The notes beneath the pieces were generated by a model. The model made no database searches, was not told the DNA's origin, and saw only the letters and a list, made by a program, of their open reading frames with translations. A program made the position numbers and the translations under genes. Shown here piece after piece: positions 39,963-43,857 of a stretch of DNA of 64,000 nucleotides (within the stretch, counting starts at the first letter, position 1; each line of letters begins with the position of its first letter). Origin of the DNA: Marinitoga aeolica (lineage in GTDB: Bacteria > Thermotogota > Thermotogae > Petrotogales > Petrotogaceae). The stretch lies in contig NZ_CP069362.1 in the NCBI RefSeq assembly GCF_029910535.1, positions 1,364,001 through 1,428,000 of the forward strand. The letters run 5' to 3'.

Positions 39963-39992
39963 TAAAACGGGCTGAAAAGCCCGTTTTATTAT
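39959..39992. terminator. Bidirectional terminator between mcp and the asnA-like gene
   Basis: ATAATAAAACGGGCT (39959-39973) and its full complement (39978-39992) form a 15-bp stem with a GAAA tetraloop. Both genes' stop codons lie within it. Confidence 0.9.
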
Positions 39993-40948
39993 ATAGAATG
40001 TTTACCTGGAGTTTTGGCAAAGAGTCTGGTTTTTTCAACATGATCTAAAGCTAAAATCCATCTAGTAAATCTTTCAATTCCGATTCCACAACCTGCTGAA
40101 TGTCTTAATATTCCAGCTTTGGCTACTTCTAAATAATCTTTGAATTGTTCTGGTGGGGTCTTTTTTAATTCCATTCTTTTTAATATTTGCTCATATTCAT
40201 GTTCTCTTTCACCACCAGAAATAGCTTCTTCATATCCTTCTGGATATATAAGATCAAAATCAAGTAAAACATCAGGTCTTTCAGGATCTTGTTTATCATA
40301 AAACTCTCTTTCCATTAAAGGAATATCTATCATCCAGAATGGTTCTTCGGCCTCTAAAGAAGCTTTTTTCTCATAATCTTCACCGTATTTTTCTTTTAGT
40401 TCTTTAACTGTGTATCGTTTAAATGGTTTTTTAGGTATTTTTAGTGATGGATGATATTTTTCGATAATTTCAGGATGTTTTTCTTTTATAGTTTTTATTG
40501 TGTAAATAATTGCATCTTCCATAACATCAAAGACATCTTCACGAGAAGATTCTAACATTTCCATATCAATTTGAACAAAATCAAATAAATGCCTTCCTGA
40601 ATTCATTTTATCTTCTGTTTCAAGTCTAACATTTGGTGATACAATATATATTTTTTTATGAACCAATACAGCGACTTGTTTGTGTAAAATCATAGATTTT
40701 GTTACAGAGTATTTTTGCCCATAATATTCAAATTCAGCTTCGAAATGTGGATGGTTTAATGGATCAGTTATTGGAGAAACTGTAACAGGCAATAATTCAA
40801 CAAATCCTTTTTTGTCTAATACATGTCGGATACCTTTTAAAATATCACTTTGAATCAATGTTGCATCTTTAAAAACGGGATTTTCTAAATACTCTTTTAC
40901 CAATTCTACAGTATCAATCTTTCTTCCTTCTGCCAATTTTTTAGTCAT
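39989..40948 (-). CDS. asnA: AsnA-type asparagine synthetase related to class II Asp/Asn-tRNA synthetases
   Basis: 319 residues from the ATG at 40948 (GGAGAGGG upstream; an in-frame TTG at 40966 precedes the ribosome site). It is a class II aminoacyl-tRNA synthetase catalytic core without the N-terminal anticodon-binding domain: motif 2 region LFDFVQIDMEM and motif 3 GCGIGIERFTRWIL near residue 290. Similar stand-alone AsnRS paralogues in archaea act as asparagine synthetase, using ATP, aspartate and ammonia. The leader peptide upstream is full of Asn codons, independent evidence that the gene serves asparagine supply. Expression is predicted to rise when Asn-tRNA is short. Confidence 0.82.
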   Translation of the reverse strand: MTKKLAEGRKIDTVELVKEYLENPVFKDATLIQSDILKGIRHVLDKKGFVELLPVTVSPITDPLNHPHFEAEFEYYGQKYSVTKSMILHKQVAVLVHKKIYIVSPNVRLETEDKMNSGRHLFDFVQIDMEMLESSREDVFDVMEDAIIYTIKTIKEKHPEIIEKYHPSLKIPKKPFKRYTVKELKEKYGEDYEKKASLEAEEPFWMIDIPLMEREFYDKQDPERPDVLLDFDLIYPEGYEEAISGGEREHEYEQILKRMELKKTPPEQFKDYLEVAKAGILRHSAGCGIGIERFTRWILALDHVEKTRLFAKTPGKHSI

Positions 40949-41072
40949 AATACCCTCTCCCTTCAAAATAATATAATATATAAAATTATGTATAATCTCT
41001 CCCTCTCCCAGGCATTTTCACAAAGTACTTGAAAAATCAATAATAAAAAAATTATGATTAATGACTAAAATA

Positions 41073-41111
41073 TAAAAAACCGGCGCTGGTACGAAAATAT
41101 CCAGCGCCGGT
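41073..41111 (-). terminator. Attenuator terminator in the asnA leader
   Basis: On the minus strand ACCGGCGCTGG-type arms (41111-41101 with 41089-41079) form an 11-bp, GC-rich stem around an 11-base loop and are followed by T6. It stands between the leader peptide and asnA, about 125 bases before the asnA start. Confidence 0.88.
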
Positions 41112-41153
41112 GAATTATAAACAACGAACTACCTCGCGTTACACCAACGCTGG
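41101..41153 (-). promoter_or_regulatory. Alternative antiterminator pairing in the asnA leader
   Basis: CCAGCGTTGGTG (41153-41142, inside leader codons 18-22) can pair over 12 positions, two of them G-U, with CACCGGCGCTGG (41112-41101), the 5' arm of the terminator. It copies the terminator's 3' arm CCAGCGCCGGT. A shorter rival hairpin GCGTT/AACGC lies within the leader coding end. Confidence 0.75.
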
Positions 41154-41206
41154 TTGATATTATTATTATTGAAATTATTAAATTTTATTGAAATTATTTT
41201 TTTCAT
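41129..41206 (-). CDS. Asparagine-rich leader peptide of asnA
   Basis: 25 codons from the ATG at 41206 to a TAG at 41129-41131, with AGGCGGTG six bases upstream. It begins MKKIISIKF, has Asn at positions 10, 11, 13, 14, 15, 16, 18 and 23 (eight of 25), and ends CNAR. The Asn run lies just ahead of the antiterminator arm. This matches the logic of trp, his and ilv leaders: a ribosome stalled at Asn codons leaves the antiterminator arm free, a ribosome reaching the stop covers it and termination follows. It is too short for routine gene calling. Confidence 0.85.
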   Translation of the reverse strand: MKKIISIKFNNFNNNNINQRWCNAR

Positions 41207-41236
41207 AAGTTACACCGCCTATAATATTTTTTTTCA

Positions 41237-41265
41237 ATTATACTATAATTTTTTTGAGATGTCAA
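41237..41265 (-). promoter_or_regulatory. Perfect consensus promoter of the asnA leader
   Basis: Minus strand TTGACA (41265-41260), 17-base spacer, TATAAT (41242-41237). The -35 box covers the mutL stop codon, so mutL read-through would also pass through the attenuator. Confidence 0.9.
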
Positions 41266-43133
41266 GTTCTCTCAAAAAAATCATCTATTTTTTTTAATGA
41301 TAATTCCATGGAAATAGGTCGTCCATGAGGGCATGTTAAAATTTCATATTCTATAATTTTAGAAATAAGAGTTTCCAATCCAACAGGGTCATCTCCAGTT
41401 TTAACTGCAGCTCTGCACGACATAGTTGCAATTGCATGATCAAATACTTTTTCGGGTGATTCTATACCTTCCAATCTTAATTCATCAAGTATTTCTATAA
41501 TAGCATTTTGAGGGTCGTTTATTTTAATATTAGATGGTAATCCAGAAATAAAATATCCATCATTATTTTTGATAATTTCGAATCCCAGTTTTCTAATTTT
41601 TTCAATATTATTTTCTAAAATTTCTTTTCTTATAGTATCAAGATTTAATTTTATAGGTAGCATTATCATCTGTGTTGTAATATTTCCATTTTCAAAAAAT
41701 TCTCTTTTTAAGTCTTCATAGATAACTCTTTCATGAGCGGCATGGAAATCTATAAATTGTATAGAATCTTTTAATTCAAGAATAATATATCTATCTGCTA
41801 CTAATCCGAGAATTTTATAATAACTTAGGTCTAAAATTTTTTCTTTTTTCTTTATTTCTGGTTTTATATAATTTGTATTATGAATAATATTTTTTACAAT
41901 ATTTTTTTCATTATTTTTTTGTTGAAAGTTTTTTTGTATGGACTGAAAATAACTGTTTTTATTATCTTTTTCTTCCTTTTTTCTTTTTATTAAAAATGTA
42001 TTGTATTTTTCTTCATTATCTGAAACTATAGGAACTTCATTTAATTTTAAAGGTTCAGATTTAACAGGATATTTTTCTTTTTCAATTTTTGATTTTTCTT
42101 TAAAATTATAATTTGAGTCGTTTTCAATATTAATAGCCATTTTAAATTTAGTTTGATTAATTAAAGTTTCTCTTATAATCCTTTTGAATTTATTATAAAT
42201 AATTCTTGATTCAGATATTTTTACCTCTAATTTTTGTGGATGAACATTAACATCAACTTCTTTAGGATCTATATCAAAAAAGATAATCCCATATGGATGT
42301 CTTCTCGACTCTAGCATTTCACCATATCCTGCTTCAAATACAGCGAATAAGTCACCAGAACGTATATATCTATTATTTATAAAAAATATTTGAGCTGTTC
42401 GATTGTTTCGAGTTACTCGTGGATGAGATATAAATCCTTTTATTTTAAACCATGGTTCTTCATAATCAATTCTAAAAAAATCTTCTTTTGAAGTTTCAGG
42501 AAAAATAACGTTTATTTTTTCAAGTAATTTCATATTTTTAGATATTGAGTAAATAGATTTATTATCTTTTATATAGCTTATTGAAACATTAGTAGCTAAA
42601 ATAAATTTTTCTATAATTTCAGTAATCATTCTTCCTTCAATTGCGGCAGATTTTAAAAATTTTCTTCTTGCTGGAACGTTGAAAAACAAATCTCTTACTT
42701 CAATTGTTGTTCCACTTGAAGCAGCAACTTTTTTAATATTTATGGGTTCACCACCTACGAATTCTATAGAAGTAGCAATATTTTCATTTTTTCTTCTTGA
42801 AACGATTTTCATTCTTGAAACTCTTGATATAGCAGCTAAAGCTTCACCTCTAAATCCATAAGTATGTATAGAATATAAATCTTCAACTTCTTTAATTTTA
42901 CTTGTAGTATGTGGTTGAACAGCTAATAAAATATCTTCTTCAGACATTCCAACACCATTGTCTGTAATTCTTATATATGTTTTTCCACCATCTTTTATTT
43001 CTATAATAATATTATCTGCGTGAGCATCAATTGCATTTTCAAATAACTCTTTTACAACTGCAAAAGTACCAGTGACAACTTCACCAGCAGCGATTTTCAT
43101 AATAACAGATTCAGGTAACTTAACAATAGCCAT
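41262..43133 (-). CDS. mutL: DNA mismatch repair protein MutL
   Basis: 623 residues from the ATG at 43133 with AGGTG five bases upstream; an in-frame start 51 bases earlier lies in rlmB and has no ribosome site. GHKL ATPase motifs in the N-terminal part: ELFENAIDAHAD, DNGVGM and YGFRGEALAAISRVS. A Lys-rich, poorly conserved linker spans about 345-430. The C-terminal dimerisation domain holds DFHAAHERVIYE, the metal-endonuclease motif (DQHA-x2-E-x4-E) with Gln replaced by Phe, and CPHGRP near the end, another endonuclease-site motif. It links MutS mismatch recognition to strand incision. It is third in the mrnC-rlmB-mutL unit. Confidence 0.97.
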   Translation of the reverse strand: MAIVKLPESVIMKIAAGEVVTGTFAVVKELFENAIDAHADNIIIEIKDGGKTYIRITDNGVGMSEEDILLAVQPHTTSKIKEVEDLYSIHTYGFRGEALAAISRVSRMKIVSRRKNENIATSIEFVGGEPINIKKVAASSGTTIEVRDLFFNVPARRKFLKSAAIEGRMITEIIEKFILATNVSISYIKDNKSIYSISKNMKLLEKINVIFPETSKEDFFRIDYEEPWFKIKGFISHPRVTRNNRTAQIFFINNRYIRSGDLFAVFEAGYGEMLESRRHPYGIIFFDIDPKEVDVNVHPQKLEVKISESRIIYNKFKRIIRETLINQTKFKMAINIENDSNYNFKEKSKIEKEKYPVKSEPLKLNEVPIVSDNEEKYNTFLIKRKKEEKDNKNSYFQSIQKNFQQKNNEKNIVKNIIHNTNYIKPEIKKKEKILDLSYYKILGLVADRYIILELKDSIQFIDFHAAHERVIYEDLKREFFENGNITTQMIMLPIKLNLDTIRKEILENNIEKIRKLGFEIIKNNDGYFISGLPSNIKINDPQNAIIEILDELRLEGIESPEKVFDHAIATMSCRAAVKTGDDPVGLETLISKIIEYEILTCPHGRPISMELSLKKIDDFFERT

Positions 43134-43137
43134 TTTT

Positions 43138-43857
43138 TCACCTGCTTTTTTGTTTAAATATTTCAAAAAGCAATATTCCTGCACTTACAGAAACATTTAA
43201 AGAATCAACATTATTTGCCATTGGGATTGATATTAAAGCATCACATCTGGATTTTACTTTTTCTCTGATTCCGTTTCCTTCATTTCCCATAACTAATGCG
43301 ACATTTCCAGTTAAATCCATTTCATAATAAATATTATAGCTCATATCTGCACCATATACCCAGAATCCTCGTTTTTTAATAACGTCAATAAATCTTGATA
43401 AATTAGTGACTTTTAAAATGGGTATTTTAAAAGCTAATCCTACAGAGACTTTAATTACAGTAGGAGTAATTTCCACAGAGTTATCTTTTGGGATTACAAT
43501 TAGATCGCTGTTTGATGCGACAGCTGATCTTATTATTGCTCCAAAATTGTGAGGGTCCTGGAGTTGATCCAGTATAATGATTGTGGCGTTTTCTTTTAAA
43601 TTATCAAGAATATCTTCTTCGGCATATTTAAATTCTTTGCCTATATCAATTACCACACCTTGATGTTTGGATATATTTACCATTCTTTGTAATACTTTAT
43701 CTGGTGCAAAAGAGAAAGAATAATTATGTTTTTTGGCTAATTCAATTAAATCATTTAAAGTTTTATCCGTTTTTTTACTATCTGTAAAGTATATATTTTT
43801 TACAGGATATTTTGCATTTATAATCTCTTTTAGAACATTTCTACCATAAACATACAT
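43138..43857 (-). CDS. rlmB: 23S rRNA 2'-O-ribose methyltransferase, TrmH/SpoU family
   Basis: 239 residues. N-terminal substrate-binding domain (YVYGRNVLKEII) and C-terminal SPOUT domain with the knot motifs LDQLQDPHNFGAIIRSAVAS, ALVMGNEGNGIREKV and SIPMANNVDSLNVSVSAGIL. RlmB methylates G2251 (E. coli numbering) in the peptidyltransferase centre using S-adenosylmethionine. Close relatives with the same motifs act on tRNA, so position is inferred from family resemblance. It starts one base after the mrnC stop and lies four bases from mutL. Confidence 0.92.
   Translation of the reverse strand: MYVYGRNVLKEIINAKYPVKNIYFTDSKKTDKTLNDLIELAKKHNYSFSFAPDKVLQRMVNISKHQGVVIDIGKEFKYAEEDILDNLKENATIIILDQLQDPHNFGAIIRSAVASNSDLIVIPKDNSVEITPTVIKVSVGLAFKIPILKVTNLSRFIDVIKKRGFWVYGADMSYNIYYEMDLTGNVALVMGNEGNGIREKVKSRCDALISIPMANNVDSLNVSVSAGILLFEIFKQKSR

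Follow-up and report, generated by a model that had tools for sequence, protein, structure and literature searches.

The trp, his, leu, ilv, thr and phe leaders are ribosome-mediated attenuators, and the his leader carries seven tandem His codons. In the E. coli trpL system a short leader open reading frame (ORF) with tandem control codons is combined with three mutually exclusive helices (1:2, 2:3 and 3:4) and an intrinsic terminator, and the leader stop codon is positioned such that a ribosome located there masks region 2. In theory, a sensitive attenuator needs a high proportion of control codons (PMC1183508). According to a 2010 survey, Proteobacteria and Actinobacteria were the only groups with known leader peptides until the Firmicutes case that it described (PMC2965389); comparative genomics has yielded attenuators in the His leader peptide of hisS*/hisZ in bacilli (PMC2965389) and in uORFC-8-2, a Cys leader preceding cysS (PMC8632094). 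In Firmicutes, Asn-specific T-boxes couple uncharged Asn-tRNA to antitermination of Asn-related genes, and an Asn-specified transporter is listed among the T-box genes (PMC2494555).

The leader of an asparagine synthetase gene (asnA-like) of Marinitoga aeolica, located in a 64-kb window (the whole stretch of DNA analysed), has the trpL arrangement in each of these respects, including the placement of the stop codon, and differs from it in having Asn codons, a Thermotogota host and a single-gene target; no sequence homology between the two is seen or expected. It shares with the his, leu, ilv, thr and phe leaders a long control run of one amino acid (4 to 9 Asn in the asnA leaders), although those leaders involve other amino acids and genes and are mostly found in Proteobacteria. 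The hisS*/hisZ and cysS leaders likewise differ in amino acid, in phylum and in having targets unrelated to asparagine. The Firmicutes T-box responds to the signal proposed for the asnA leader, but T-boxes bind tRNA directly and without a leader ORF, whereas the asnA leader has an ORF.

All of the elements lie on the window's minus strand. A sigma-70-type promoter (41237-41265), described as perfect in a first-pass annotation, does match the consensus at 12/12 positions, with TTGACA at 41265-41260 and TATAAT at 41242-41237 separated by 17 nucleotides. It is followed by a Shine-Dalgarno sequence, AGGCGGTG (41213-41220; its counterpart in other Marinitoga-type genomes is AGGTGGTG), and by a 25-codon ORF (41129-41206) encoding the peptide MKKIISIKFNNFNNNNINQRWCNAR, which has counterparts at 47 genes. 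Eight of its codons specify Asn, and seven of these fall within the nine control codons 10-18 (41153-41179). A putative protector hairpin 1:2 (GCGTTG/TAACGC with an outer ACC/GGT, at about 41131-41154) spans the end of the leader and its stop codon. Region 2, CCAGCGTTGGTG (41142-41153, leader codons 18-22), forms the 5' strand of the antiterminator, and region 3, CACCGGCGCTGG (41101-41112), provides both its 3' strand and the 5' arm of the terminator; the two regions can form 12 base pairs, two of them G-U. The intrinsic terminator 3:4 (41074-41111) has arms ACCGGCGCTGG (41111-41101) and CCAGCGCCGGT (41089-41079) that make an 11-bp stem with an 11-nt loop, followed by six T residues at 41079-41074, the first of which doubles as the last base of the stem. 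It was missed by a terminator scan because that scan was limited to loops of 8 nt. The ribosome site, the Asn content of the ORF, the 11-bp terminator with T6 and the 12-bp pairing between leader codons 18-22 and the terminator arm had all been read from the DNA in the first-pass annotation, and each stands as described. The leader segment folds with z = -3.84, beating all 200 shuffles, and the 64-kb window contains no second convincing leader-like ORF and terminator with an Asn run. Between the terminator and asnA (40948-41080; loci L002, L003 and L021) there is also a purine-rich stretch, GAGAGGGAGAGAT, which is kept in several Marinitoga-type genomes and is additional to the asnA ribosome site.

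These elements are best explained by a trp-type, asparagine-specific ribosome-mediated transcription attenuator controlling an archaeal-type asparagine synthetase, a reading to which we assign a probability of about 0.92. RNA polymerase would initiate at about 41230, and a ribosome would translate the leader. With charged Asn-tRNA scarce, the ribosome would stall at the Asn codons and cover region 1, so that region 2 pairs with region 3 (41153-41142 with 41112-41101), the terminator is blocked and asnA is transcribed. With Asn-tRNA ample, the ribosome would reach the stop codon and mask region 2, the terminator would form, and transcription would end at 41079-41074. If the leader were not translated, hairpin 1:2 would tie up region 2 and termination would again follow. 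Leader translation, stalling, coupling, termination and the response to asparagine are thus what we infer from this architecture.

We simulated these states by folding the RNA left free by a ribosome assumed, from general footprint knowledge, to mask 10 nt past its A-site codon. Before arm 4 is made, a ribosome on the first or the middle Asn codon leaves region 3 paired upstream, in 2:3, with a probability of about 0.80; on the last Asn codon this upstream pairing falls to 0.52. A ribosome at the stop codon gives a terminator probability of 0.98, and ribosome-free RNA one of 0.91. In full-length RNA at equilibrium the terminator usually wins despite a stalled ribosome, the antiterminator probability being 0.00 in M. 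aeolica, and the switch must therefore be kinetic, as in trp; helix 2:3 would form first and persist while the polymerase passes the T-run. A conserved leader alone is no proof of such a mechanism, since mutation of the candidate control codons of the Streptomyces ilvB leader had no effect (PMC1262725).

The enzyme is encoded in 49 of 103 Thermotogota genomes, and 49 upstream regions were read, of which 48 are readable, as that of genome G061 ends at a contig end. Leader ORF and terminator, in that order, are present in 47/48, distributed over five families (f1, f2, f5, f6 and f8), which supports the proposal of the first-pass annotation that an Asn-codon leader peptide works a terminator/antiterminator switch. 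Comparison of the 47 leaders shows a common arrangement conserved ahead of asnA across the phylum – a mini-ORF, usually with an Asn run, then protector hairpin, antiterminator and terminator – with pairing maintained by compensatory changes. The start codon is ATG in 44, GTG in one and TTG in two, and a promoter matching at least 10/12 positions lies upstream of 27/47 of these orthologous leaders, compared with 4.6% of shuffles. The exception, G012 (L012), has neither leader nor terminator; a promoter-like TTGACA is found near its asnA instead. Genome G028 (family f2, genus g11) has two asnA copies (L048 and L049) on separate contigs, with a leader and a terminator at each. In Marinitoga lauensis (G003; L021/L031), a close relative (best-segment protein identity 93%), asnA is frameshifted and has an in-frame TAA, possibly through an assembly error, and the leader and terminator are intact.

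The sequence of region 2 varies by family (CCAGCGTTGGTG, CAGCGTCGGTGATT, GATCGGTCGGTT, ACATCGGTCGATCGGGTT) with its pairing preserved. Native 2:3 energies range from -20 to -27 kcal/mol by family and average -22, whereas cross-family strand swaps give -12 to -15 kcal/mol; the median z of the antiterminator is -3.8. In the f1 alignment 88.5% of 2:3 positions are paired, against 29-51% when the strands are slid, and there are 14 double-change cells against 5.2 in shuffles (0/500), while 3:4 is 97.9% paired, with 18 double-change cells against 5.0 (0/500). In the f5 alignment 1:2 is 96.3% paired, with 6 double-change cells against 1.5 (2/500); sequence relatedness inflates this shuffle control throughout, a weakness from which the slide and cross-family controls are free. 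Protector hairpin 1:2 is clear in f2 and f5 and moderate in f1. The alignments thus indicate that the antiterminator, the terminator and, in family f5, the protector hairpin carry compensatory changes. A comparison of relatives for Asn enrichment, start codon conservation and covarying pairings had been proposed along with the first-pass annotation, and its outcome is favorable: a start codon is kept in 47/47, Asn runs are found in most, and both 2:3 and 3:4 covary. A long-range minimum-energy stem, joining the Shine-Dalgarno region to sequence beyond the stop codon, was considered and dropped, as its pairing is no better than in cross-family swaps except in f8.

The Asn runs themselves reach nine codons, with a median longest run of 5, and Asn accounts for 95% of the codons from the first to the last Asn pair. 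AAT and AAC are mixed in the runs (181/55), so it is the residue that is kept and not a DNA repeat. At least five Asn within eight codons are found in 33/47 leaders (at least four in 38/47) and in 0/209 other mini-ORFs of the same regions, a contrast somewhat inflated by the choice of leaders partly on Asn content among terminator-proximal ORFs, although the candidates were few. Weak runs are seen in one f2 genus (g11), with 2-4 codons, and in G064, which has Asp-Asn-Asp-Asn (DNDN). Runs of this length, together with peptide endings kept within families (QRR, WPGSVS, SIDIGR), could also be accounted for if the ribosome were arrested in a TnaC-like manner by the poly-Asn nascent peptide, or by free asparagine acting on it, instead of by a shortage of Asn-tRNA. 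We consider this very unlikely: the runs differ freely in length and in the residues beside them, the endings coincide with nucleotides of helices 1:2 and 2:3 and are therefore explained by RNA pairing, and arrest under abundant asparagine would act in the wrong direction for a biosynthetic gene.

Stalling for want of Asn-tRNA being the preferred reading, there is the further question of which gene the terminator serves. It lies downstream of mutL (41262-43184), the upstream neighbour, which is outside the switch, and it might simply end the mutL transcript, the Asn-rich ORF being a chance product of AT-rich sequence; GC content in the window is about 27%, and (AAT)n tracts are numerous in the genome, with 143 four-AAY-codon matches, no more than in a reversed control. 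However, MutL precedes asnA only in Marinitoga-type genomes, and on this gene order the leader is assigned to asnA rather than to the preceding gene, given that leader and terminator precede asnA in five families, even in regions of 39-44% GC. Five-Asn-codon runs are, moreover, nearly absent from families that lack the enzyme (1 in 14 and 1 in 11 genomes), and the 2:3 pairing covaries, all of which makes an accidental origin extremely improbable. Among the five-Asn runs listed elsewhere in the M. aeolica genome none has a mini-ORF with a terminator, nor do those of families f3 and f11, and an Asn-rich leader precedes 0/18 AsnB loci of the phylum. Short related stretches, each an (AAC)n run with similar sequence after it (reading NNNNNNN-KRTCKI-like in the Asn frame), occur repeatedly in the M. 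aeolica genome, at positions 537426, 2377401, 2383690 and 2395308 of contig C1; they were set aside as copies of a dispersed repeat rather than leaders. The -35 box (41260-41265) of the leader promoter includes the mutL stop codon (TGA), and mutL has no terminator of its own before that box, so read-through mutL RNA would cross the attenuator too. Although alternative hairpins alone would also fit an attenuator controlled by a protein or a T-box/riboswitch-type ligand binding the leader RNA, with the ORF incidental, this is scarcely credible, as an Rfam search of the 64-kb window gave no match at the gathering threshold, T-box included, and no RNA sequence is conserved across families, only the pairing and an ORF with an Asn run and a ribosome site.

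The gene controlled by the proposed asparagine-specific attenuator (39989-40948, 319 aa) had been annotated as AsnA-like. Its assignment to the asparagine synthetases is supported; judged by family membership, however, it is of the archaeal type and not the canonical AsnA of E. coli. It scores 426.6 bits against the NCBIfam equivalog NF005054 (asparagine synthetase A, PRK06462 type; cut-off 309), and its nearest solved structures are the 'AsnRS-related' proteins 1nnh and 3p8t (E about 5e-56), which we take to be from Pyrococcus; PDB 3p8t carries the name archaeal asparagine synthetase A. The protein is an AspRS/AsnRS paralogue consisting of the class II catalytic domain alone, with the anticodon-binding domain absent. 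Family and regulation together support the prediction that it synthesizes asparagine. As M. aeolica also encodes a normal AsnRS, GatB and one full-length AsnB, free asparagine would be usable for tRNA charging and the synthetase need not be its sole source. The enzyme of an archaeal metagenome-assembled genome (L032) is 51% identical to the synthetase, above some Thermotogota copies (40-48%), which suggests gene transfer between domains. No Asn-rich leader was found upstream of the nearest archaeal homologues (L032-L034).

The mechanism itself is classic, and what appears to be new is its specificity for asparagine and its occurrence in a little-studied phylum. Some attenuator candidates in Thermotogales were reportedly mentioned by Vitreschak et al. 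in 2004. A literature search, with subscription surveys outside its reach, returned neither an Asn-specific attenuator nor one that had been worked out for Thermotogota, and a survey of Actinobacteria has no asparagine leader attenuator (PMC1262725). We think the odds slightly better than even that no leader-peptide attenuator specific for asparagine has been described before in any bacterium, that this is also the best-supported leader-peptide attenuator in Thermotogota, and that an ancestor of several families brought an archaeal-type enzyme under the ribosome-coupled control of bacteria, which has since persisted through large changes in RNA sequence.

With this locus, asparagine would join the amino acids that control their own synthesis via a leader peptide, and there is strong comparative evidence for leader-peptide attenuation in Thermotogota. 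Such control implies tight coupling of transcription and translation in these mostly heat-loving bacteria, and it supports annotating the archaeal-type AsnRS/AspRS paralogue as the regulated asparagine synthetase of the group. The 47 loci, with 2 to 11 Asn codons, constitute a natural series on the relation between control-codon number and sensitivity.
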